Positions 26,369 through 40,088 of a DNA stretch of 46,762 bases are shown one piece after another. A model generated the notes under the pieces. It was not told the origin of the DNA. It ran no database searches and saw nothing but the letters and a program-made list of their open reading frames with translations. This DNA is from Bacillota bacterium (lineage in GTDB: Bacteria; Bacillota; UBA4882; UBA10575): positions 1 through 46,762 of the forward strand of contig DUNX01000050.1 of NCBI GenBank assembly GCA_012839115.1, written 5' to 3'. The position numbers were made by a program, and so were the translations under genes. How positions within the stretch are numbered: the stretch's first letter is position 1; each line of letters opens with the position of its first letter.

Positions 26369-28306
26369 CTATATTACAGGAGCGCGCGCATCATCGCGGA
26401 TATAGGCCTCAAACGGCGAGGCCGGCAAGCCCTCTTTATTGTAGAGATTGGCCTGTGCCGGGTTGTTAGCCCAGGCATACCTGATGCCAAAGGGCTGCAT
26501 TACCCGGCTACAGCCAACAATGACCTGTTCACCACTGATCTCCGCTTCCGCCCGGTAGAACTTCCGGTCCGCACCGCAAATTTCGAACCCGCCTAACGGT
26601 CCCCCGCCTTTGGCCACCAGCCCGCCGCCAACGGAAGTAAAGGAGACGACGGCGGTTTCACCCCTGACCTCCATCCGGGCAAACATCGGACCCTGGTAGA
26701 CCAGGTCTTCCCTGTGCGCCAGCTTTTGCGCGGCCAGGGCCAACCGGTGCCCGACGGTCTTTTTATCCTGCGGGTGCAGGTCATTATCTTCACCGGCATC
26801 AATTGTTACCGCCATTGCCGTGTTGGGCAGGGCAAGTCCCAGCCGTTGCTCCTCGCGCAACCGCGCCCAGTTTGATTCTTCCGGCTCCATGGAAGCGGGC
26901 ATGAAATTAGGCAGTTGCACGTATAAAACGGGGAACTCGCCAAGGCGCCATTTCTCCCGCCAACTGTTGACCAGGGCGGCAAAAAGGCGCCGGTAGTTCC
27001 CGGGGTTGCCGGTGTTGCTCTCCCCCTGGTACCAAAGGATGCCTTTGATAACGTATTGGTGCAAAGGGGCGATCATCCCGTTATAGAGGCCGGTCGGGAA
27101 ATATTGAAAGAAGGTATTCGTTGGTGTGGGCTCCATCTGTACACCGGTTTTGTACCGCCAGGGGCCGGACAAATCGATGGTATGCTCCCCGACCTCCAAC
27201 GCATAGCGTTTACCCTGGACAAAGCCGCCAGTGTCGCGGTTGCTGATTACCCGGACGGCGAGGATGTTTTTCCCGGGCCGCAAGACTCCCTTCGGGACCG
27301 GATATTTCCTGGGCGGGTACTTATAGGCGGTTTTTCCCACCAAAACCCCGTTCAGATAAGCCTCGTCCGCATCAATAATCGCCCCCAAGCGCAGAAGACC
27401 TTCACCACCTGAAATTTCCACGGGTACGGTAAATGCTTTTCTGAACCAAACTGCACCGTTAACCTTGGCTAACTCACTGCCAGCCCATGAGTTGGGCACG
27501 GTAAAGACGGGCCACTGCGAATCGTCAAAGGACGGCCGGGCCCAGGGAACTTCCCCGTTCTTGTACCCTTCATCACCGGCGTTCAACCGCTGGTACCAGC
27601 CTTCAATCGCCCGGGTCTCCGCGGCGATTGTGCGTTGAATATAATCATCATCCCGGCATTTGGCCAAGGTTTCCAGGTCGTGCAGGTCGCCGGCTTTGGC
27701 GAGGGCTTCTTCATCCAGCCAGGCCTGGATCGGCGTCCCGCCAGCGGCTGACCGGATAAGGCCGATCGGGATTTGGTACTTATCATAAAGGACGGTGGCA
27801 AAGAAATAGCCGACAGCCCCAAAATCCAGGACGTTTTCCGGGGTGACCTCCTTCCACTGGCCGCCGGTCAATTCGGCGCGGGGTCCGTGGAAATCATAGA
27901 GCAGCGGGACGGCGAATTCACGGATAAAAGGGTTTTTTGCGTCGCGCACTTCCCCTGCAAAGAGGTCAAGGGTCCGGTGGACCGGTATCTCCATATTCGA
28001 TTGGCCGCTCAGGACCCAAACGTCCCCAACCAAAACGTTCTTTATCCTGTGTTCTTCATTACCGCAGCTGATCGTCATCTCCCAGGGGCCTCCCGGCTCC
28101 AGCGGGTCCATAACTACCTGCCAGTTCCCGGCCGGATCGGCTTGCGCCTGGTATTGCCTGGCACAAAAAGCCACCGTCAACTGTGCGCCCGGCTCGGACC
28201 GGCCCCAGATCCTAACCGCGGCATTCCGCTGTAGGACCATCCCGTCACTCAACAAGGGCGACAAAGGCAATTTTTTTTGCTCCGGGCCATTGTTTTGTAA
28301 GGGCAT
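26369..28306 (-). CDS. Sialate O-acetylesterase-like SGNH hydrolase
   Basis: A 645-residue protein. An N-terminal Ig-like domain (LLSDGMVLQRNAAVRIWG) precedes the esterase: VWVLSGQSNME gives the catalytic Ser near residue 100, IRSAAGGTPIQAWL follows, and LHPQDKKTVG supplies the C-terminal Asp/His region. A galactose-binding-like jelly roll (about residues 250-370) is inserted in the middle, as in large SIAE/DUF303 enzymes. Relatives remove acetyl groups from sialic acids, xylans or other glycans. There is no signal peptide, so it is probably cytoplasmic. AGGAGG lies about 10 nt before ATG 28306. The promoter region carries ATTATG repeats that probably bind a repressor. It lies upstream of the PfkB-GH3 genes but has its own promoter. 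Confidence 0.85.
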   Translation of the reverse strand: MPLQNNGPEQKKLPLSPLLSDGMVLQRNAAVRIWGRSEPGAQLTVAFCARQYQAQADPAGNWQVVMDPLEPGGPWEMTISCGNEEHRIKNVLVGDVWVLSGQSNMEIPVHRTLDLFAGEVRDAKNPFIREFAVPLLYDFHGPRAELTGGQWKEVTPENVLDFGAVGYFFATVLYDKYQIPIGLIRSAAGGTPIQAWLDEEALAKAGDLHDLETLAKCRDDDYIQRTIAAETRAIEGWYQRLNAGDEGYKNGEVPWARPSFDDSQWPVFTVPNSWAGSELAKVNGAVWFRKAFTVPVEISGGEGLLRLGAIIDADEAYLNGVLVGKTAYKYPPRKYPVPKGVLRPGKNILAVRVISNRDTGGFVQGKRYALEVGEHTIDLSGPWRYKTGVQMEPTPTNTFFQYFPTGLYNGMIAPLHQYVIKGILWYQGESNTGNPGNYRRLFAALVNSWREKWRLGEFPVLYVQLPNFMPASMEPEESNWARLREEQRLGLALPNTAMAVTIDAGEDNDLHPQDKKTVGHRLALAAQKLAHREDLVYQGPMFARMEVRGETAVVSFTSVGGGLVAKGGGPLGGFEICGADRKFYRAEAEISGEQVIVGCSRVMQPFGIRYAWANNPAQANLYNKEGLPASPFEAYIRDDARAPVI

Positions 28307-28695: not shown

Positions 28696-29727
28696 TTGTT
28701 AAAAAGAGACTGGGAAACCCTGCTGGAAGTTGTGGACGGTAAGAGTTTTGACCGGCCGCCGGTCGCCCTGATCATCGACAGCCCGTGGCTGCCGGATTAC
28801 GCCGGCGTAACCCATTTGGATTACTACCTCCATCCGGATCTTTGGTTAGAAATAAATTTGCAGGTAAAGCAGGATTACCCCAACATCATCTTTCTCCCTT
28901 CTTTCTGGGTGGAGTACGGGATGGCTACCGAACCGTCGGCCCTGGGCAGCCTGGTACGGTGGAGCCGTAACGATATGCCCACGGTGGAAAAGAGGATCAC
29001 CTCTCCGGAGGAGATCTCCCGCCTCCGGGTACCGAACCCGGAAAAAGACGGGCTTATGCCTTTAGTCCTCAATCTCTACCAATACTTCCAGCAAAAACTG
29101 GACGGGACCGGGCACGAGATTAAGATTGTTGCCGCCCGCGGCCCGTTAACCGTCGCCTCTTTTATTTACGGGCTTACGGAACTGTTGATGGGGATCCGGA
29201 TCGAGCCCGATTGGATGAAGAAACTGCTGGAACTCACGACGGAAACGGCGATCACCTGGCTTAAGGCGCAGCTCGCGGCTGTTCCCTCCGCCGAAGGGAT
29301 CTTGCTGCTGGATGATATTCCGGGCCTGATGTCAAAAGAGGATTATGCTGAATTCGCCCACCCGTACCTGCAGGCCATTTTTAACGAATTCAGGGATAAA
29401 CTGAAATTCTACCATAATGACGCCAACACCACCCATATTTTGCCTTTGTTGACCGGACTCGATATTGACATCTTCAATTTTGGCAAAGAAGTCCCCCTGG
29501 CGGAGATCTATAAATACACCACAGGGAAAATGGTGGTGATGGGGAATATCTCACCGCTGGAGACCTTGAGGGAAAAAAGCCCGGAAGAAGTGGAAAAAGA
29601 AGTTGCGGAGTTCTTGAAGGATGCTCCCGGTAAGTACCTCCTGCTTTCCGCGGGCGGCGGGGTGTCCCCGGGCACACCAAAAGAGAACATTGCCGTGCTG
29701 AATCAGGCGGCTGCCGTTATTTCCTAA
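28696..29727 (+). CDS. Uroporphyrinogen decarboxylase-fold protein (methyltransferase-like)
   Basis: A 343-residue protein from TTG 28696 (AAGGAGG upstream). It has the UroD barrel pattern of the MtaA/MtbA/CmuA branch rather than true HemE: an N-terminal DRPPVALIID, IVAARGPLTVASFIYG, LLLDDIPGLMSKEDY, FYHNDANTTHIL, GNISPLETL and the final GGGVSPGTPKENI. Corrinoid methyltransferases of this branch bind zinc through His-x-Cys and a later Cys. Here the corresponding spots appear as His240-Asn-Asp242 and Gly321, so the thiol ligands are absent. The protein may use another metal set or a different reaction. It converges on the lysR gene, overlapping it by 4 bp, and may serve the same pathway. Confidence 0.8.
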   Translation: MLKRDWETLLEVVDGKSFDRPPVALIIDSPWLPDYAGVTHLDYYLHPDLWLEINLQVKQDYPNIIFLPSFWVEYGMATEPSALGSLVRWSRNDMPTVEKRITSPEEISRLRVPNPEKDGLMPLVLNLYQYFQQKLDGTGHEIKIVAARGPLTVASFIYGLTELLMGIRIEPDWMKKLLELTTETAITWLKAQLAAVPSAEGILLLDDIPGLMSKEDYAEFAHPYLQAIFNEFRDKLKFYHNDANTTHILPLLTGLDIDIFNFGKEVPLAEIYKYTTGKMVVMGNISPLETLREKSPEEVEKEVAEFLKDAPGKYLLLSAGGGVSPGTPKENIAVLNQAAAVIS

Positions 29728-30668
29728 ACGGTAAAAGTGGAGGTCTTGGGCTGCGCCTCATCCCCCGCGGTTTTCTGTGGTTGTTCCCGGTAGTACCAGC
29801 AGGCGAACCGGGTGAATTTCCTGCCTAATTCCGAGAGGAGAGAGTCATTGGCCATCAGGGTCAGGGTAAGAGAGGGGCTTTCTTCTACATTAATTAAATG
29901 AAAGACCGGTTCGGTAAAGAAATTGGCCGCCCGGATCCGTGTTTGCAACGTGACACGCATCCCTTGCAGGATATACCGTTTGATTGTCCCTAAGCGGACA
30001 TGGGATAAGGTATGGTAGGGCGCAAAACCCGCAGCTACGCACGTTTCGTAGAAGAGTTTAAATAAAGATTCGTCTTCCCGGGGAAAACAAAATCTCTCGT
30101 GCTGTAAATCAGCTAGAGAGATTTTGTCGGTTTTAGCCAGCGGGTGACTTTCATGCACCACCAAGACCAGGTCATCTTTTTTCAGCGGCACGGAAAAATA
30201 ATCCGGTTCATCCGGCCAGAGTTCCCGGTAACCGATGATGATATCGGTCTGCCGGTTGGAGAGTAAATCGAACATCTGAAGATGGTCGCATTCTTTGGAT
30301 TCGATATAAAAATTGGCTATATCATGCTCGAAACTGACCATTAAATCGGTAATTCCGTATTGCGACATCTCACAAAAAGAGGCAATACGGAGTTTCTTTT
30401 TCTCACTCTTTATATAATCCTTAGCCTCTAAGACCATGCGGTCATATTCATCCAGAATTGTCTGGACATAGACGGCTAGCCGTTCGCCGATCGGCGTTAA
30501 TTTGATCACCGAGTGGCTGCGCTCCACAAGGGTTACCCCCAACTCATCCTCAAGGGATTTCAGCTGTTTTGAGAGCGCCGACTGGGAAATGTAAAGATTT
30601 TCTGCGGCCTCGGAAAAACTCCGGTATTTCTTTATTGCCGCAAAACACCTGAGATGGTCAAACCTCAA
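29724..30668 (-). CDS. LysR-family transcriptional regulator
   Basis: A 314-residue protein from TTG 30668 with a weak purine-rich site. The N-terminal winged helix is canonical: MRFDHLRCFAAIKKYRSFSE, then NLYISQSALSKQLKSLEDELG and LVERSHSVIKLTPIGE (residues 1-60). Residues about 90-295 are the periplasmic-binding-type effector domain. LysR proteins commonly activate a divergent operon in response to a pathway metabolite. This gene is divergent from the UGSC-TRAP-oxidoreductase operon, and the space between holds a perfect dyad next to that operon's promoter. I therefore infer it controls the operon. Its own promoter (30916-30944) implies a leader of about 240 nt. The C-terminal tail after residue 297 is polar and variable. 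Confidence 0.88.
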   Translation of the reverse strand: MRFDHLRCFAAIKKYRSFSEAAENLYISQSALSKQLKSLEDELGVTLVERSHSVIKLTPIGERLAVYVQTILDEYDRMVLEAKDYIKSEKKKLRIASFCEMSQYGITDLMVSFEHDIANFYIESKECDHLQMFDLLSNRQTDIIIGYRELWPDEPDYFSVPLKKDDLVLVVHESHPLAKTDKISLADLQHERFCFPREDESLFKLFYETCVAAGFAPYHTLSHVRLGTIKRYILQGMRVTLQTRIRAANFFTEPVFHLINVEESPSLTLTLMANDSLLSELGRKFTRFACWYYREQPQKTAGDEAQPKTSTFTV

Positions 30669-31058: not shown

Positions 31059-31116
31059 AAAGTTAAAAGCACAAGCAGTTTTAGTAAAACACTACACAAA
31101 GGAGCGAAGAAAGACT

Positions 31117-32829
31117 ATGGCTAGAAAACTCAACCCAATACTCGACCCCCGCGGGTACCAGGAACGGCCGGTGCTCAAACTAGCGCCCCGCGTAACCCTG
31201 GATGATCTGCGGAAAGGAAAAATCCTGTTCTACAACAACACAAAACTCTCTTTCTGCAATTACAACCAGGTCTTTATCAGGATTAAAGAGCGTTTCCGGG
31301 AATTAGGGGTCACCAATTTCGTTGACTATGTGGAGACGGTCCGTGGTAAAAACACAGAAAAATTGGAAGAATACGCGGCGATGCTGGCCAAGGAAAAACC
31401 CACCGCGGCTATTGTCGCTTTTGGCGATATGGGTACTTCCGCGGCAACGACAATTGTCACCATCGCCCTGGAAAAACTGGGCATTCCTACTGTGTATATG
31501 ACCGCGCCTCCCGGATCGGCCATTACCGAAGGGGTGGGGGTCTACCGTGCCGGTAACCTTTGCCTCTGCTCCATCGATGTTTACCAGGCCAGCACCGTGG
31601 AGGAAGTGCGGGAGCAGATCGATCTGAAATGGGATTATATCATCAGCGCTTTAACCGCCGATGATAAAAAACTGGCTGAATTAGCCCGGATCGATTTTAA
31701 AATGGACCAGGTTCCTCCGGCGGAAAACGGCTTGTTGCCGATTGTCGACGAAATTGCCGTTGACGAGGAAAAACTCTGGGAACCCGGTTGTTATATGGAA
31801 GAGATCAACGAGTATTTCAATAGGGAGCATATCAGTGACGGCCTGCCCATCATCCCCCCGACCCGGTCCCGTTACGAAAGGATGATGACTTATTGCCCGT
31901 TTGCTGAGGATATGGTCCTCTGTGAACAGGTGGGCCCCACCGGGAAGGATATTACCGTCAAAGACGTGGCGATTGCCGCAATTATGGCCGGTTGCACGCC
32001 TAAGGCCATGCCGGTTTTGGTCACGGCTTTCCGGGCCTTAAACAACCCCAAGTACAATTTAATACAGTCGGTCACCACTTCCCATCCCGGCGGGAACTTG
32101 GTCCTGGTCAGCGGGCCAATTGCCCAGGAAATAGGGCTCTCCGGTAAACAGGGTTGCATGGGGCCGGGTTGGCCGATGAACGCCACCATTGGGCGGGCGG
32201 TCAACCTGGTGATTATGAATGTCTGCCGTTCGGTTCCGGGAATTTGCGACCTGGACTGCCTGGCGTCACAAGCAGAATTTACCTACTGCTTTGCAGAGGA
32301 ACCGGAGCTTGCCGAGTGGAAAATGATCAATGAAGAACGCTTTGATGCCGAGACCACCACGGTTTATGTGCTCAAGGCCGAGCCCCAGCATGATATCATT
32401 GACTTTCTGAGCTTAACCGGCCATGATTTGCTGGACACCATCACCCACTGCTGCACCACTCTGGGCTCGAATAATGCCTATATCCCCGGTCCGTTGGTGG
32501 TCTGCCTGACGCCCGACCATGGGAAGATGCTGAAGAAAGACGGTTATACGAAGGATATGATCCGGGAGCACATCCACACCTATGCCTACCACGAGGTGCC
32601 CATGGTTCGTAACCGTGGTCTGGTCCCTGTACGCCCGCAGGAATTTGCTAACCGGCACCCGATGCCTGTCACCCGCAGCCCGGAGGATGTCGAGGTTGTT
32701 GTGATCGGCGGCCGTGGCGGTCATTCCGGTGTGATTCTCCCGTGGGCCCTACACAGCGAAGGCATAGTGGAACCGGTAACTCTCCCCAACGGGAAGAGGG
32801 CAAAGAGCATTGAAGAGTTCAAAAGATAA
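31117..32829 (+). CDS. Two-domain UGSC-family protein with replaced redox motif
   Basis: A 570-residue protein. Residues 1-200 match the UGSC family: LDPRG near 9-13, KLAPR, then VAFGDMGTSAATT where the family has a Sec/Cys-Gly-Ser-Cys motif. Here that motif is Met105-Gly-Thr-Ser108; codon 105 is ATG (31429-31431), not TGA, so both redox residues are lost. Residues about 225-570 form a second conserved module often found with UGSC proteins: SDGLPIIPPT (240-249), IMAGCTPKAMPV, TTSHPGGNLVLVSGP, MGPGWPMNATIGRA and YCFAEEPE. The biochemical function of both modules is unknown to me. It has no signal peptide or membrane span. It is the first gene of the TRAP operon, so it probably acts on the imported compound. 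Confidence 0.78.
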   Translation: MARKLNPILDPRGYQERPVLKLAPRVTLDDLRKGKILFYNNTKLSFCNYNQVFIRIKERFRELGVTNFVDYVETVRGKNTEKLEEYAAMLAKEKPTAAIVAFGDMGTSAATTIVTIALEKLGIPTVYMTAPPGSAITEGVGVYRAGNLCLCSIDVYQASTVEEVREQIDLKWDYIISALTADDKKLAELARIDFKMDQVPPAENGLLPIVDEIAVDEEKLWEPGCYMEEINEYFNREHISDGLPIIPPTRSRYERMMTYCPFAEDMVLCEQVGPTGKDITVKDVAIAAIMAGCTPKAMPVLVTAFRALNNPKYNLIQSVTTSHPGGNLVLVSGPIAQEIGLSGKQGCMGPGWPMNATIGRAVNLVIMNVCRSVPGICDLDCLASQAEFTYCFAEEPELAEWKMINEERFDAETTTVYVLKAEPQHDIIDFLSLTGHDLLDTITHCCTTLGSNNAYIPGPLVVCLTPDHGKMLKKDGYTKDMIREHIHTYAYHEVPMVRNRGLVPVRPQEFANRHPMPVTRSPEDVEVVVIGGRGGHSGVILPWALHSEGIVEPVTLPNGKRAKSIEEFKR

Positions 32830-32874: not shown

Positions 32875-33909
32875 ATGAAAAAGAACGTTCTGATGGTAGT
32901 TTTAGCCCTGGTGGTAGTAGTGGCCTTATACGGGGGGATCAGGTACTTCAGATCCTCCCGGGATACGGCCGGAGAGCCGAAAGTCACGTTAAGCTTTGGT
33001 GGGACGGCAGCGTCAGAGGATTTGGCCTCGAAAGCAATGCAAAGAGTGGCAGACCTGGTTGAAGAAAGAACCAACGGTTCCTTGAAGATTAATGTTTTTC
33101 CCGCCTCCCAGTTGGGAGATGCCATGACCCAGATGGAAATGGTCATTAACGGTAACATTGATATTTTCATGGAAGGTGCGAATTATATGGCCGACTGGGG
33201 GGTCCCTGAGCGTTATGTTGCCAGTTTGTATTTCCAGTGCCCAAGTAAGGAAGCGTTCCTGAAACTTCTTGACAGTGACTTATATAAATCTTGGGAAGAT
33301 ACCTTTCTGGAAAAAACCGGTCTGAGAACTTTAGCAAGCAACTGGGTACGCCCACCGGTTGAAATTGCCTCCAACGTTCCCTTATACACACTGGAGGATT
33401 TCAAGAATCTGAAACTGCGTTCGCTTCCGTCAAAATATACCTTGGATGCTTTGAGCGCTTTGGGCACAAAACCGACATCCGTTGCTTATAATGAAGTCTA
33501 TCTTGCGATGCAACAAGGTGTTATTGAGGCGACCATTGCCACTTTGGATGCGGTTTACAAGATGAACTTCTATCAGGTGGCAAAATACCTTTGCATGGTA
33601 GATGCCAGCTACGTTAATTTCGCTCTCTGGATGAACGAAGCCAAGTTCCAGTCCTTGAGTCCATCGCAACAAGAGATTTTGGTCAACACCTGTAAAGAGG
33701 TGGGCGAATGGTATATGGCGGCGGTCGAAGCCGAGCTGGATAGTTATATCCAGAAGATGGTCGAACACGGTGTGAAGATCATCGAGTATTCACCGGAGGA
33801 ATATGCCAAATTTGCCGCCACGATTAAGCCGCTTGTTGATAAGTATGTGGCGGAAGGAACATGGCCGGAAGGACTATACGAAGCATTTATGGACGTGATC
33901 TCGGAATAA
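32875..33909 (+). CDS. dctP: TRAP transporter solute-binding protein (DctP family)
   Basis: A 344-residue protein with AAAGGAGG 7 nt before ATG. The N-terminus is a hydrophobic segment (residues 5-25) with no lipobox Cys and no clear cleavage site, so it may stay membrane-anchored. The fold is DctP-like: ASEDLASKAMQRVADLVEERTNGSLKI, FPASQLGD, the segment NLKLRSLPSKYTLDAL with the Arg that normally clamps a substrate carboxylate, and YNEVYLAMQQGVIEATIA. It binds an organic acid outside the membrane and hands it to DctQM. The substrate is unknown. It sits 45 nt after the UGSC-like gene and just before dctQ and dctM. Confidence 0.9.
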   Translation: MKKNVLMVVLALVVVVALYGGIRYFRSSRDTAGEPKVTLSFGGTAASEDLASKAMQRVADLVEERTNGSLKINVFPASQLGDAMTQMEMVINGNIDIFMEGANYMADWGVPERYVASLYFQCPSKEAFLKLLDSDLYKSWEDTFLEKTGLRTLASNWVRPPVEIASNVPLYTLEDFKNLKLRSLPSKYTLDALSALGTKPTSVAYNEVYLAMQQGVIEATIATLDAVYKMNFYQVAKYLCMVDASYVNFALWMNEAKFQSLSPSQQEILVNTCKEVGEWYMAAVEAELDSYIQKMVEHGVKIIEYSPEEYAKFAATIKPLVDKYVAEGTWPEGLYEAFMDVISE

Positions 33910-33977: not shown

Positions 33978-34619
33978 TTGAAGACTTTGAACTATATCAT
34001 TCTTTACAGTAACAAGATCCTAAGAGTAATTGGCAGCATTATTCTGGCGACGATATTACTGAGTATATCAGCGGGTATCGTCAGCCGGTACGTGTTTGGC
34101 GCTCCATTTAGCTGGACAGAAGAGCTGGCCACCTTCTTAATGGTTAATTTAGGGTATATTGGTGGGGCAATCGTAACAATAGAGAAAAAGCATATCGTCG
34201 CTGACTTTCTAATTAGCAAAGCCCCACCAAAATTACAAACAGCAGTCTCGTTTTTGGGGAAACTCCTGGCAATCGCTGTTTTTACGCTCATCTGCAGCAG
34301 CTCTCAGCAACTATTGGCAAGGAGCGCTTACAAAACTGCAGCTCTCGGACTTTCCAGGAATCTCTTTTACGTGCCCCTCTTCTCCATGTCTGCTTTTATG
34401 ATCTTTGTCGTGCTGGTTGATCTCCTCAACGCTATTTTCCCTGGTTATGATATCCAGGCGGCTACCGTCCGGGAGGAAGACCAGTTGCTGATGGAGGAAG
34501 AGCTTAAAGAGGCGCGAGAAGAAGAGAAGCAAATCGTCGATTTTATCCAGCAGTCAGCTGAAGCGGAGAAGACTAATGATTCAGAATCGCCTGCTTTTAA
34601 GAAAGGAGATGAGAAATAG
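33978..34619 (+). CDS. dctQ: TRAP transporter small membrane subunit (DctQ)
   Basis: A 213-residue protein from TTG 33978. Four membrane segments (about 13-37, 47-66, 88-105, 128-150) with the DctQ signature FSWTEELATFLMV. After the last segment comes an unusual 60-residue highly charged tail (EEDQLLMEEELKEAREEEKQ), probably a cytoplasmic helix, not part of the usual family. The GGAGA before the start pairs with TCTCC (33962-33975), which could hide the ribosome binding site and make translation depend on upstream ribosomes. It ends at TAG directly next to the dctM start. Confidence 0.88.
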   Translation: MKTLNYIILYSNKILRVIGSIILATILLSISAGIVSRYVFGAPFSWTEELATFLMVNLGYIGGAIVTIEKKHIVADFLISKAPPKLQTAVSFLGKLLAIAVFTLICSSSQQLLARSAYKTAALGLSRNLFYVPLFSMSAFMIFVVLVDLLNAIFPGYDIQAATVREEDQLLMEEELKEAREEEKQIVDFIQQSAEAEKTNDSESPAFKKGDEK

Positions 34620-35912
34620 TTGACAACAATAGCGATTATTTTCGGCGCATTTTTGTTCCTATTGCTTCTGGGTATTCCGGTAGTCTTCTCTCTGGGCGCT
34701 GCTTCATTGCTCTGGCTGCTCATGAACCCCAACGTGCCGATTACGGTGGCTTCGCAAAACATGATGAGCCAATTGCTTTCTTTCACGCTCATTGCCATGC
34801 CGGGCTTCTTATTCGTAGGACGAATGATGAACACATCAGGGGTTACCGAACGCCTGCTACGATTTTCTGTGGCGATGGTTGGACGGTTCCGTGGGGGGCT
34901 TGCCCACGCCAATGCCCTTGCCAGCATGTTGTTTGCCTCCATGTCCGGGAATGCCGTTGCTGATGCGGGCGGTCTTGGCCTGGTGGAAATGACCATGATG
35001 AAGAAGGCCGGATATGACCCGGAATTTAGCGCCGGGATCACGGCGGCATCAAGTATTTTGGGGCCGATTATTCCCCCGAGCCAGATCATGGTGCTTGTCG
35101 GCTCGATCGCCCAGATCTCCGTGGCTTCCCTGTTCTATGGGGGCATCCTTCCTGGAATTTTGATGGGCGGGTCAATGATGGGTTTGATTGCGCTACGTGC
35201 CGTTTTTACAAAAAAAGGAAGAACCTGGCCTAAAACTAAAATTCCTTGGAAGGAAGCGGTTAAAACGATTCCACAGGCGATTCCCCCGTTGATGACCTTT
35301 GTGATTATCATCGGCTCCATCATGGGCGGGGTCTGCACTCCTACGGAAGCGGCAGTCTTGGCGGTATGGTGGGCAATTATTCTTGGCATTTGCTATAAGA
35401 AACTAACATGGAAAAGCCTATGGAAAACATTGGAGGAGACTGTCCGTACCGCCGGGGTTTTCATGATCATAATGTCGGTGGCCAGCTTCTTTGCTTGGAT
35501 TGTCACAATTGAAGGGCTTCCCCAGGCCTTACAACGTACCTTGGGGGTGCTTGCCGGGGAGAGCCAGTTCTTGATGTTTTTTATCTGCACCGTAATATTC
35601 TTGATTATCGGTTGTTTCCTGGATACCGGTTCGGCAGCGCTATTGCTGACACCCATTGTGTTGCCGGCGGTAATCCCTTTAGGGATCGATCCGGTGCACT
35701 TCGCGTTGGTGATGATTATCGCCCTGATCATTGGCGCCATCACCCCGCCTTTCGGGCTCTGCCTTTTTGTCGTTGCCGATGTCGGCAATGTACCGGTAAA
35801 GAGGGTGACAGTGGAAGCGTTGAAATATTTACCGGCTATGATCTTTGCTTTGATATTGGTCATCATCTTCCCGGAACTGGTGACTTGGCTGCCCAAAGTA
35901 CTGCTTAACTAG
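34620..35912 (+). CDS. dctM: TRAP transporter large membrane subunit (DctM)
   Basis: A 430-residue protein from TTG 34620, immediately after the dctQ stop; AAAGGAG lies upstream inside dctQ. About 12 hydrophobic segments. Family motifs include PLLIAMP-like SFTLIAMPGFLFVGRMM, SGNAVADAGGLGLVEMTMMKKAGY, SSILGPIIPPSQIMVLVG and TPPFGLCLFV. It forms the sodium-coupled transport channel with DctQ and takes substrate from DctP. With dctP and dctQ it makes a complete TRAP system. Length and motifs are normal. Confidence 0.92.
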   Translation: MTTIAIIFGAFLFLLLLGIPVVFSLGAASLLWLLMNPNVPITVASQNMMSQLLSFTLIAMPGFLFVGRMMNTSGVTERLLRFSVAMVGRFRGGLAHANALASMLFASMSGNAVADAGGLGLVEMTMMKKAGYDPEFSAGITAASSILGPIIPPSQIMVLVGSIAQISVASLFYGGILPGILMGGSMMGLIALRAVFTKKGRTWPKTKIPWKEAVKTIPQAIPPLMTFVIIIGSIMGGVCTPTEAAVLAVWWAIILGICYKKLTWKSLWKTLEETVRTAGVFMIIMSVASFFAWIVTIEGLPQALQRTLGVLAGESQFLMFFICTVIFLIIGCFLDTGSAALLLTPIVLPAVIPLGIDPVHFALVMIIALIIGAITPPFGLCLFVVADVGNVPVKRVTVEALKYLPAMIFALILVIIFPELVTWLPKVLLN

Positions 35913-35996: not shown

Positions 35997-36701
35997 ATGT
36001 CGATCGGGGTAATCGTAGACGTTTTCGCAATTTTCTTCGGAGGATTGATTGGCGCATTTAGTCAAGACCGGATTCCTGAGAAGCTCAAGGTTGCATTACC
36101 GATGATCTTTGCAGCCTGCGCCTTTTCGCTGGGGACAAACTTAATAGTGAAGGTTGTAAACCTTCCCCCTGTTGTTTTGGCCTTAATCTTAGGTACGGTC
36201 ATCGGGGAACTGTTGGATATTGAAGACAGGCTCCGCAATGTTTCCAAGAAGTTGCAGGCGAAGTTGCAAACGGGGAAGGCAAAGACCGACGAAAAAGCAG
36301 TCGAGGGCTTCATTACAATCCTGGTTTTATTCAGCGCCAGCGCCAATGTGTTTATTGGCTCTCTCTATGAAGGAATAACGGGCGATGCCACCATTCTCTT
36401 CATCAAATCAATTCTCGACTTTTTTACGGCAATGATCTTTGCAACAACCATCGGATACTCGGTAATGTTTATCGGTATTCCTTTATTGGTCATCGGGTCC
36501 ACCCTTTTTTCGCTGGCTTCCCTGATAATGCCCTACCTCAGTGATGTGATGATTGCCGATTTTGCGGCCGGTGGTGGTATTATTACCTTGCTGGTGGGAA
36601 TCCGCATGATGGAATTGAAGAAAGTCCCGGTGGCAAATACCTTACCGTCAATATTATTGACAGTTCCCCTCTCTTACTTGTGGACGCTCATCTTTGGGTA
36701 G
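35997..36701 (+). CDS. DUF554-family membrane protein
   Basis: A 234-residue, six- to seven-segment membrane protein. DUF554 signs: GVIVDVFAIFFGGLIGAF at the N-terminus, LALILGTVIGELLDIEDRL, FSASANVFIGSLYEGITGDATI, and DFAAGGGIITLLVGIRMM near the end. The family (YdfK, YqgA) is widespread but uncharacterised; it may transport small molecules. It lies 84 nt after dctM and 42 nt before an FAD-dependent oxidoreductase. A decayed homologue sits before the second oxidoreductase (38296-38577), so the two genes appear to travel together. Confidence 0.85.
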   Translation: MSIGVIVDVFAIFFGGLIGAFSQDRIPEKLKVALPMIFAACAFSLGTNLIVKVVNLPPVVLALILGTVIGELLDIEDRLRNVSKKLQAKLQTGKAKTDEKAVEGFITILVLFSASANVFIGSLYEGITGDATILFIKSILDFFTAMIFATTIGYSVMFIGIPLLVIGSTLFSLASLIMPYLSDVMIADFAAGGGIITLLVGIRMMELKKVPVANTLPSILLTVPLSYLWTLIFG

Positions 36702-36743: not shown

Positions 36744-38177
36744 ATGAAGCACAATAAGAAGTTCGACGTAATCATTTGTGGTGGAGGCACTTCAGGAGTA
36801 GCAGCAGCTATTGCTTCGGCCCGAACCGGAGCAAAGACCCTTCTCATTGAGCGTCTCGGCGCTTTAGGTGGTCAGATGAATGTCTCCGGACCCCCGGGAT
36901 TTGCCTATGCCCGCCTGTTCAACCAGCGCGGCGAGCAAGTTATTGCCGGTATAATTGAAGAGACCCATAAGCGGCTTCTTGAGCAAGGATACGCCCTGCC
37001 TCATAACCATAGCGAATATAGAAAAGGTTCAGGTTATACCTTCTCCTATATTGATCCGGATATGTGGGGGCTTATGATCTTTGACATGATGCAAGAAAAC
37101 GGCGTAGACTTGCTCTTGCACACGCTCGTGGTGGATGTTCTGAAAGACGGTGATAAGGTTACCGGCGTGGTCGTTGAGAATCCCAACGGAAGAGTGGAAA
37201 TAGAAGGGAAAATAGTGATTGACTGTACCGGGGAAGGGTATATTGCCCACAGGGCGGGCGCCCCTTCAGAGAAGGTTCCCCGGGAGGAATTGCAACCCCA
37301 CACACTAGCCTTTACCTGTGACGGAGTTGATTGGGATGAGTTTCTGGCCTATGTGAGAGCCAATCCCAGAGACTTTGTGGGTTGTGAGGTTCCCGGCCGG
37401 ACGGATGAAGAGATGTACGAGATTCTGAGCAAAACAGATAATATTATTGACCTGGGAGAGATGAGGGGCTTCTTTTCCATCTTGAAAAAGGCTCTTGCCA
37501 ACGGAGAATGGCACGAGTTTAGTGGTATGGGCTTTTTTATCATGCCCAAGGGGGATGAGAAGAACAGGAGGATACTTGCGCATTTCCAGCATTCATCGCA
37601 TGTTCCCGGGCGCGATCCCGATGATGCCTGGGACCTGACCTATTGTGAGATTGAAGCCAGAAGACAGATTCAGATTGCTTTTAACTGCTTCAAGAAATAT
37701 GTCCCTGGTTTTCAGAACGCCTATATCGTCAGGGTCTGTCCGGAGATTAGGATCCGTGAAGGCAGAAGGATTATTGGTGACTACTACCTGACAACTGAAG
37801 ACGTTGGCGCCGCCAGGAAATTCCCGGACGTAATCGGGAAGAGCGCTTTTCCCGCCGGGGGGCATCATGTCGCTTCCACCGAGACATTGGCGCACGGCAG
37901 GGTCCGGCCGAAAGACGGTGGTTCCCATGACATTCCCTACCGGTGCTTGGTTCCTAAGGAGGTAGAAAACCTTTTGGTTGCCGGGAAAGCGATCTCTACA
38001 GATCGGGATTCCTACCATCGCTTCCTGCAACAGACCATGGTCACCGGCCAAGCGGCGGGGGTAGCGGCCGCCCTCTGCGTCAAGCAAAACATTACCCCCA
38101 GGGAACTGGAGAATGACGTCTCTGAGCTACAGCGAATCCTCCAGGAGCAAGGCGCTATCCTTTACGGCACCCACTAA
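36744..38177 (+). CDS. FAD-dependent oxidoreductase, copy 1
   Basis: A 477-residue protein with AAAGGAGG upstream. The N-terminal Rossmann motif is DVIICGGGTSGVAAAIASA (residues 8-26), with the FAD-contacting Glu-Arg in LLIERLGALGGQ. VIDCTGEGYIAHRAGA closes the FAD domain, and a C-terminal VPKEVENLLVAGKAIS then QTMVTGQAAGVAAALC completes the PF12831-type FAD_oxidored fold. There is no iron-sulfur Cys cluster, signal peptide or haem motif, so it is cytoplasmic and probably uses a soluble acceptor. It would oxidise or reduce the substrate imported by the TRAP system. Copy 2 at 38655 has exactly the same length and roughly 80 percent identity. Confidence 0.85.
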   Translation: MKHNKKFDVIICGGGTSGVAAAIASARTGAKTLLIERLGALGGQMNVSGPPGFAYARLFNQRGEQVIAGIIEETHKRLLEQGYALPHNHSEYRKGSGYTFSYIDPDMWGLMIFDMMQENGVDLLLHTLVVDVLKDGDKVTGVVVENPNGRVEIEGKIVIDCTGEGYIAHRAGAPSEKVPREELQPHTLAFTCDGVDWDEFLAYVRANPRDFVGCEVPGRTDEEMYEILSKTDNIIDLGEMRGFFSILKKALANGEWHEFSGMGFFIMPKGDEKNRRILAHFQHSSHVPGRDPDDAWDLTYCEIEARRQIQIAFNCFKKYVPGFQNAYIVRVCPEIRIREGRRIIGDYYLTTEDVGAARKFPDVIGKSAFPAGGHHVASTETLAHGRVRPKDGGSHDIPYRCLVPKEVENLLVAGKAISTDRDSYHRFLQQTMVTGQAAGVAAALCVKQNITPRELENDVSELQRILQEQGAILYGTH

Positions 38178-38654: not shown

Positions 38655-40088
38655 ATGAAACACGAAACCGGGTATGATGTCATTGTCTGCGGAGGCGGTA
38701 CTTCGGGAGTGGCGGCCGCCATTGCTTCGGCCAGAACCGGGGCAAAGACCCTGTTGATTGAACGTCTTGGTACTTTGGGTGGGCAGATGAACGTCTCCGG
38801 ACCGCCGGGGTTCTCCTACGCCTGGCTCTTCAACCAACGCGGCGAGCAGATCATCGCCGGCATCGTTGAGGAGACCCACAAACGCCTTTTGGAAATGGGC
38901 TATGCTTTACCGCATAACCACAGCGAATACCGGGAGGGTTCAGGCTTTACCTTTTCCTATGTCGACCCGGATTGGTGGGGGCTCTTGATCTTTAACATGA
39001 TGGATGAAAACAACGTCGATCTGCTCCTCCACGCTATGGTAGTTGATGTGTTAAAAGAGGGAGACAAGGTCACCGGCGTAGTCGTGGAGACCGTCGGCGG
39101 CAAGCTTGAACTGAAGGCCAAGGTTGTTATTGACTGCACCGGTGAAGGCTATGTGGCGGTGCAAGCCGGCGCCCCTACAGATATGGTTCCGAAAGAAGAA
39201 TTGCAACCACATACCCTCGCCTTTACCTGTGACGGTGTGGACTGGGACGAACTTCTTGCCTATGTACGGGCTCATCCTGAAGAATTTGTCTATCCCAATG
39301 TCCCCGGCCGTTCAGCAGAGGAGACCTGTGAGATTTTGCGAAGGGTAGAGGATGTGTGGGAACTCGGAGAAATACGAGGTTTTGCCTCCATCCTTGAGAA
39401 GGTGATGGAAACCAAAGAATGGCATGGCATGAGCGGTCTGGGCTTTTTCCTCATGCCAAAGGGCGATCCCAAAAACCGGCGAATCCTGGCACATTTGCAG
39501 CATTCGTCGCATGTTCCCGGCCGCTCGCCTTATGACCCCTGGGACCTCACCTATTGCGAGCGGGAGACCCGCAGGCAGATCCAGATCGCCTTTAAAGTCT
39601 TTAAGAAATATATGCCCGGCTTCAAAAACGCCTATATCACCAGGGTTTGCCCGGAACTCCGGATTCGTGAAGGCCGGAGAATTGTTGGCGATTACATCTT
39701 GACCCGTCAGGATGTGGCCGAGGCGAAGAAATTTCCTGATGTCATCGGGAAGAGCGGTTTCCCCGCCGGCGGCCACCATATCGCCAGTACCCAGACCATA
39801 GCCACTGACAGCGTGTGGCCGAAAGACAGGGGTTCCCATGATATCCCCTACCGGTGCCTGGTACCGAAGGAAGTCGAAAACTTCCTGGTTGCCGGTAAAG
39901 CGATCGCCACGGACCGTGACGCTTATCACCGCTTCCTGCAACAGACCATGGTCACCGGCCAGGCGGCGGGGGTGGCGGCCGCCCTCTGCGTCAAACAGAA
40001 CATTACCCCCAGGGAACTGGAGAAAGACCTCTCTGAACTGCAGAAAATCCTCCAGGAACAAGGCGCCATCCTTTACGGCACCCACTGA
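38655..40088 (+). CDS. FAD-dependent oxidoreductase, copy 2
   Basis: A 477-residue paralogue of the 36744 gene, with AAAGGAGG upstream. It has the same motif order: DVIVCGGGTSGVAAAIA, LLIERLGTLGGQMNVSGPPG, IDCTGEGYVAVQAGA, VPKEVENFLVAGKAIA and QTMVTGQAAGVAAALC. Differences cluster in the middle (residues about 205-250), which may adjust substrate choice. The last 140 bp are about 90 percent identical in DNA to copy 1, higher than the middle, hinting at recent gene conversion. The two copies may form a heteromer or act on related substrates. A decayed DUF554 gene lies just upstream, and an 18-bp hairpin ends the operon. Confidence 0.85.
   Translation: MKHETGYDVIVCGGGTSGVAAAIASARTGAKTLLIERLGTLGGQMNVSGPPGFSYAWLFNQRGEQIIAGIVEETHKRLLEMGYALPHNHSEYREGSGFTFSYVDPDWWGLLIFNMMDENNVDLLLHAMVVDVLKEGDKVTGVVVETVGGKLELKAKVVIDCTGEGYVAVQAGAPTDMVPKEELQPHTLAFTCDGVDWDELLAYVRAHPEEFVYPNVPGRSAEETCEILRRVEDVWELGEIRGFASILEKVMETKEWHGMSGLGFFLMPKGDPKNRRILAHLQHSSHVPGRSPYDPWDLTYCERETRRQIQIAFKVFKKYMPGFKNAYITRVCPELRIREGRRIVGDYILTRQDVAEAKKFPDVIGKSGFPAGGHHIASTQTIATDSVWPKDRGSHDIPYRCLVPKEVENFLVAGKAIATDRDAYHRFLQQTMVTGQAAGVAAALCVKQNITPRELEKDLSELQKILQEQGAILYGTH

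Follow-up and report, generated by a model that had tools for sequence, protein, structure and literature searches.

One gene in the 46,762-nucleotide stretch of a Bacillota genome analysed here (the window) encodes a protein whose N-terminal domain is of UGSC type but carries Met and Ser at the positions of the Sec/Cys redox pair, and whose second module falls in no Pfam family. The locus raises the question of what such a domain is kept for once both redox residues are gone. The gene and its parts are as follows:

31100–31104, + strand: probable ribosome-binding site (AGGAG), 12 nt before the ATG, from the sequence
31117–32829, + strand: gene for the two-module protein of Met/Ser type (UGSC-type N-domain and module 2, 570 aa), from the reading frame, Pfam, orthologs and AlphaFold2
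31117–31731, + strand: N-domain, residues 1–205, UGSC/GrdB-type and Rossmann/flavodoxin-like, from PF24696, hhalign and a fold search
31423–31440, + strand: G103-D-M-G-T-S108, aligned with the Sec/Cys motif, from alignments, profile and codons
31471–31473, + strand: E119, kept by all 98 members regardless of motif and found in GrdB too
31561–31563, + strand: C149, invariant in the Met/Ser clade and mostly Arg (67) in the 81 members outside it
31780–32826, + strand: module 2, residues 222–570, model pLDDT 88, with D241, N355, R360 and E394 conserved across the family

The reading frame is intact (ATG at 31117, stop at 32827–32829) and holds no TGA, which rules out a recoded TGA in this gene. 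Orthologs occur at 93% and 89% identity, and comparison with the 93% ortholog gives a dN/dS of about 0.08 in both parts (0.079 for the N-domain, 0.074 for module 2), values that indicate equal purifying selection on the two. A frameshift, misassembly or pseudogene is ruled out by the intact frame, the 19 members of the Met/Ser clade and the low dN/dS. The AlphaFold2 model of the protein has a pLDDT of 90 and a pTM of 0.92. A promoter and terminator scan returned about as many promoter-like sites as shuffled sequences did, and fewer terminators.

The two modules and the motif columns

A Pfam scan returned a single family, UGSC (PF24696), over residues 8–129 at 27.3 bits, above the gathering cut-off of 25 (29.8 bits in the genome search); the NCBIfam equivalog NF041046 was missed, at 20.4 bits versus a cut-off of 125. 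A profile built solely from 81 N-domains of relatives outside the Met/Ser clade recovered the window N-domain at 37.4 bits and E 9e-9 (Z=100,000), and profile-profile comparison of Met/Ser with Sec-type and other N-domains gave a probability of 98.7% and E 1.6e-16. The two Cys columns of the 81-member profile fall on M105 (ATG, 31429–31431) and S108 (TCC, 31438–31440). Members of the Met/Ser clade are one residue shorter between the motif and the invariant E119, and M105 and S108 stay on the motif columns because GD-x-G is shared. The initial annotation is borne out on these points: the family match is significant, and the motif aligns at GDMGTS rather than elsewhere in the protein, which contains neither Sec-Gly-Ser-Cys nor Cys-x-x-Cys; the redox pair is gone and the domain is kept. 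The further claim that thiol or selenol chemistry is excluded stands for residues 105 and 108 and does not extend beyond them: all 19 clade members share C149, C293, C347 and C391, and nearly all relatives outside the clade have no Cys at the C149 and C347 columns. These cysteines amount to a caution, since 4 invariant of 15 is about the average invariance rate of the protein.

The N-domains of Sec- and Cys-type UGSC proteins align with the C-terminal part of GrdB at an hhalign probability of 96% (E 4.9e-9), with Sec placed on Sec (VILTSTUGTCT in GrdB, VVAVGDUGSCT in L054); the reversed GrdB alignment, as control, gave 1.7%. In an hmmsearch each of the 22 GrdB sequences was hit, with E-values between 1e-7 and 1.5e-4, and no reversed sequence scored below E 400. 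These comparisons show homology between the UGSC domain and the Sec domain of GrdB. The link is apparently new: in the literature consulted, the UGSC passages do not state it and few papers name both, an absence that does not prove novelty. For the Met/Ser clade the link runs via the redox members, because Met/Ser N-domains alone miss GrdB (hhalign probability 2.5%); PF07355 (GrdB/PrdB) likewise has no match in the window protein. Residues 27–193 of the AlphaFold2 model match LacI/periplasmic-binding, PurE and CheY-type α/β domains at Z up to 10.2, a resemblance of the model to a common arrangement that says nothing on function. A PDB sequence search, with the single protein and with an 83-row profile, gave no significant match.

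Module 2 is more isolated. The 87 module-2 sequences scanned against Pfam gave matches at the level of chance, with no family recurring significantly, and the structure search reached a best Z of 6.0 and a best Foldseek E of 4.5e-3 with no clear relative; the class I fumarase and Toblerone cyclic amide hydrolase folds scored a VIA-align Z of about 5 or less. Because hhalign matched module 2 neither to GrdB nor to the N-domain, it was rejected both as a GrdB domain and as an internal duplicate. The initial annotation had tentatively placed activity in this module, and most of the family-wide invariant residues indeed lie here; the conserved polar ones are D241, N355, R360 and E394, and E394 occurs in all 98 members. 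We infer the catalytic role of module 2 from this conservation; a division into a binding N-domain and an active module 2 is plausible.

Motif loss, fusion and the Met/Ser clade

The 98 fused proteins compared here are UGSC matches from Bacillota and from genomes with the Met/Ser clade, a set that is biased in having been gathered with an N-domain model and centred on the relatives of the clade. At the motif position 58 carry Sec, 9 carry Cys and 31 carry neither, 17 of these 31 being the Met/Ser clade. The fusion of the two modules, which the initial annotation had singled out and against which it proposed to map motif loss, is no special feature: in the sampled genomes the fused layout is the usual one, in Sec, Cys and motif-less versions, and both modules of the window protein align with Sec/Cys members (with non-clade profiles, E 5.3e-58 for module 2 beside the N-domain value given above). 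The modules also occur as separate adjacent genes (L026, L122–L125, L127 and several plasmids). A tree from module 2 only, with the motif left out, requires six changes between motif present and motif lost. Since Sec, Cys and motif-less forms are all fused, and since the clade is one branch in a tree with six changes, motif loss is separate from fusion, and the module-2 tree rules out fusion as its cause. The change count alone is directionless; Sec in the homologous GrdB points to loss.

The Met/Ser clade has 19 aligned members from five phyla, all of which carry D-[M/I/V]-G-[T/V]-S (M, I or V at position 105, T or V at 107, S at 108), and by this alignment the substitution is a fixed character of the clade. 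In the tree from module 2 without the N-domain the clade is monophyletic with 100/100 support on a long stem (1.44), and its neighbours, at moderate support (85/91), are the Sec-type L003, L027 and L039. Sixteen clade loci in species-representative genomes belong to Bacillota, Acidobacteriota, a Desulfofustis and a Dehalococcoidia bacterium, and plasmid-borne members were found in Sporomusa termitida (WP_144353155.1; 65.8%) and Vibrio europaeus (46.3%). The Desulfofustis locus (L020, 8980–12548), in a genome that has SelB, holds tandem Met/Ser-type and Ile/Ser-type copies beside TctA/TctC transporter genes.

Motif-less paralogs in Acidobacteriota (L085, L092, L096, L102, L106, L108, L114) resemble the window protein in being fused and without Sec or Cys but differ in sitting on separate branches of the module-2 tree and in carrying other residues at the motif (SGMG, NGMG, PSSS etc.), so their loss is independent of that in the window clade. 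Runs of three or four such paralogs, all without Sec and Cys at the motif, occur at L092 (G327) and L096 (G326). The acidobacterial genome G326, which also contains L018, has 27 UGSC matches on many contigs, most with an in-frame TGA, which make up an unusually large selenoprotein paralog group of one family. L048 and L115 are fused proteins on a very long branch with the motif CTLS, in which the first Cys is retained and the second replaced by Ser.

Genomic neighbours and selenium independence

The genes around the two-module gene in the window are as follows:

28696–29727, + strand: URO-D/MtaA-like protein, from profile matches; a URO-D family gene lies in the Sporomusa cluster too
29724–30668, − strand: LysR-type regulator, divergent from the two-module gene; homologs adjoin or lie near several orthologs
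32875–33909, + strand: TRAP transporter DctP
33978–34619, + strand: TRAP transporter DctQ
34620–35912, + strand: TRAP transporter DctM (gaps within the transporter set 0–68 nt)
35997–36701, + strand: DUF554 membrane protein, from Pfam
36744–38177, + strand: FAD_oxidored (PF12831), a homolog (about 60% identical) of the protein encoded beside Met/Ser genes elsewhere
38655–40088, + strand: second FAD_oxidored, 78.6% identical to the first

The two FAD_oxidored genes stand in tandem, 477 nt apart, and are the two full-scoring PF12831 genes of the genome. Four genes separate the first of them from the two-module gene here; in 12 other loci of Bacillota and Acidobacteriota a PF12831 gene lies directly 3′ of the Met/Ser gene and is co-directional with it, and none was found near the gene in the Desulfofustis and Vibrio loci. 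Several redox-type members keep other company. TrxB-like genes adjoin seven redox-type loci (Arthrobacter, with trxA; Roseovarius; two of Variovorax; Paracoccus; Neorhizobium; and the Bacillota locus L038), and the same test found none beside the Met/Ser loci; this absence is weak evidence by itself, since TrxB is missing from most of the Sec-type loci examined, and several loci have short flanks. Electrons for glycine reductase pass from NADPH through thioredoxin reductase to thioredoxin (PMC3091704), and trxB beside redox UGSC loci thus fits a GrdB-like reductase. Of 22 genomes with UGSC proteins, 21 lack GrdA (PF04723), namely the window genome (G000) and 20 of the 21 others; the UGSC system thus does not include the half of glycine reductase that depends on GrdA.

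Transporters flanking the Met/Ser gene vary with the host (TRAP, Tct, sugar-type ABC, Opp-type ABC, MFS), which suggests one conserved step served by different uptake systems. In L015, Sporomusa and Vibrio, aconitase X and its small subunit are encoded close to the Met/Ser gene; several bacterial heterodimeric subclasses of aconitase X are without known function (PMC8184944). Fe-S dehydratase families (AcnX, IlvD/EDD) are among the neighbours in some loci. Aconitase X was rejected as an obligatory partner, as none scored over the cut-off in the window genome and it is present in just 6 of 18 genomes tested. A pooled Pfam census of 84 neighbours of other two-module loci yielded a mixture of metabolic and transport genes with no single theme.

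Several loci have further neighbours. A plasmid of Arthrobacter sp. ERGS1:01 (L159, 4626–7800) carries trxB, trxA and a Cys-type pair of module 2 and UGSC in one run with a phosphosulfolactate synthase-like gene upstream, and such a gene is also near the Natrinema pair (L163). On a Variovorax boronicumulans plasmid (L166) a fused CGSC-type protein is encoded near ornithine cyclodeaminase-family and DHDPS-family genes, neighbours that hint at cyclic imino acids as possible substrates. In the window itself, 26369–28306, upstream of the cluster and on the opposite strand, encodes a 645-aa protein with sialate O-acetylesterase and β-galactosidase sugar-binding domains.

The window protein is not a selenoprotein by either of two marks: its reading frame has no in-frame UGA, and SelB was not found over the cut-off in its genome, which is 96.9% complete. 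SelB over the cut-off was also not found in seven other genomes carrying the Met/Ser gene (G002/G317, G318, G320, G325, G329, G114 and G332) and is present in ten more. The Met/Ser protein is the sole UGSC match in the window genome and in G002/G317, G318, G320, G325, G329 and G114; for the window genome, this single match rules out a role as dimer partner of a Sec paralog. Single SelB absences may be gaps, as several of the genomes are drafts: G318 and G330 have near-identical loci yet differ in SelB, and G332 lacks SelB yet has an in-frame TGA in one of its UGSC genes. The Met/Ser gene persists in genomes without detectable Sec insertion.

Candidate function and relation to known systems

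Residues of the N-domain that are invariant in the clade cluster at the C-terminal ends of strands 1, 2, 4 and 5 (18 of 25 positions versus 30 of 138 elsewhere; Fisher p 1.9e-6, indicative only, as the regions were picked post hoc). This is the usual ligand edge of such folds, and the cluster resembles a ligand site that has been rebuilt. The concentration of clade-invariant residues at this edge makes a purely structural N-domain unlikely, and the domain has probably not decayed. The replacement of the redox pair in a lineage that keeps the pocket around it under strong selection suggests a relative of glycine reductase rebuilt for different chemistry.

The reading we prefer, to which we assign roughly an even chance, is that the protein serves an organic-acid operon as a repurposed enzyme that no longer uses a selenol; the N-domain would bind the substrate, module 2 supply the catalytic residues and the FAD protein handle redox. 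The GrdB homology, the replaced redox pair, the change of genomic partners and the independence from selenium are observed, whereas the substrate, its binding and its conversion are predicted. Its ancestor would have been a GrdB-like reductase, probably thioredoxin-fed, whose selenol or thiol chemistry was given up. An organic acid would enter through the TRAP transporter, and the two-module protein would be the catabolic enzyme of this uptake operon. The anionic group of the substrate is predicted to bind at the rebuilt edge, made up of N41-T42-K43-L44, R76-G77-K78, G103-D-M-G-T-S108 and T129-A-P-P-G133, and catalysis would fall to D241, N355, R360 and E394, perhaps where the two modules meet. 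The reaction would probably be a non-redox one, namely a dehydration, an isomerisation or a C-C/C-X cleavage, and any electron transfer would be carried out by the neighbouring FAD-dependent oxidoreductase in place of Sec and thioredoxin.

Part of the same evidence could be read as a pseudoenzyme, with the N-domain a dead scaffold or regulatory part that stabilises or orients module 2, the carrier of all activity. The nucleophile is gone, with mostly Met in its place, the motif was lost several times in the family, as the six changes attest, and conservation within the clade is lower in the N-domain than in module 2 (49 of 166 versus 141 of 339 positions invariant). The clade-specific residues on the ligand edge, albeit in regions chosen post hoc, speak against a scaffold, as do a dN/dS as low as that of module 2 and the retention of E119 in all 98 members, and we regard it as unlikely. 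Redox chemistry may instead have moved to other cysteines or to a metal or Fe-S site formed by C149, C293, C347 and C391, as would suit their invariance in the clade, the near-uniqueness of C149 and C347 to it and the Fe-S dehydratase genes that adjoin some loci; with an invariance near the protein average and no CxxC or known cluster motif, such a relocation seems improbable. Ranked last is a two-protein enzyme in which the window protein acts as the partner subunit that gives the adjacent FAD oxidoreductase its substrate specificity and flavin replaces the selenol. The direct adjacency in 12 loci and the location of both PF12831 genes of the genome within the cluster would accord with it, set against the four intervening genes in the window and the Vibrio and Desulfofustis loci with no FAD gene nearby.

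A broader proposal, tentative and in our estimate doubtful, concerns the family as a whole: UGSC with module 2 would be a further, very large GrdB/PrdB-type branch of selenol enzymes, thioredoxin-fed and GrdA-free, from which the Met/Ser clade departed by abandoning the selenol and recruiting an FAD oxidoreductase. If so, this branch would cleave or reduce varied small organic acids, the dozens of UGSC paralogs per genome in some Acidobacteriota would belong to it, and the Met/Ser clade, having remodelled the same pocket, would be a natural before-and-after case of selenoenzyme repurposing. UGSC proteins are described in the 2008 GOS study as among the commonest selenoproteins of aquatic metagenomes (PMC2398784), and the GrdB homology, the constant pairing with module 2 and the trxB neighbours together form a first concrete biochemical hypothesis for them. 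Comparison with the Met/Ser clade, a conserved nucleophile-free variant, would separate the role of the selenol from that of the fold and module 2.

Among known systems are GrdB and PrdB (PF07355), the substrate-specific selenoproteins of the glycine, betaine and proline reductases. The region of GrdB that bears Sec is homologous to the N-domain of the redox UGSC forms; the window protein differs from GrdB and PrdB in having neither the Sec nucleophile nor the resolving Cys (M105 and S108 instead), and module 2 has no counterpart in GrdB by hhalign. From the UGSC (seleno)proteins of PF24696 and NF041046 the window protein is set apart by the lack of Sec or Cys at both motif positions, a score below the NF041046 cut-off and different neighbours. 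As to fold, the UGSC section of the 2008 study suggests a thioredoxin-like one, whereas the model here resembles Rossmann/flavodoxin-like domains, with no thioredoxin fold among the best structure matches listed for the N-domain. The same section already reports a fusion of UGSC with an unknown domain (UGSC/Unknown_1); its N-domain is that of the window protein, and its two-module architecture is very probably the same.
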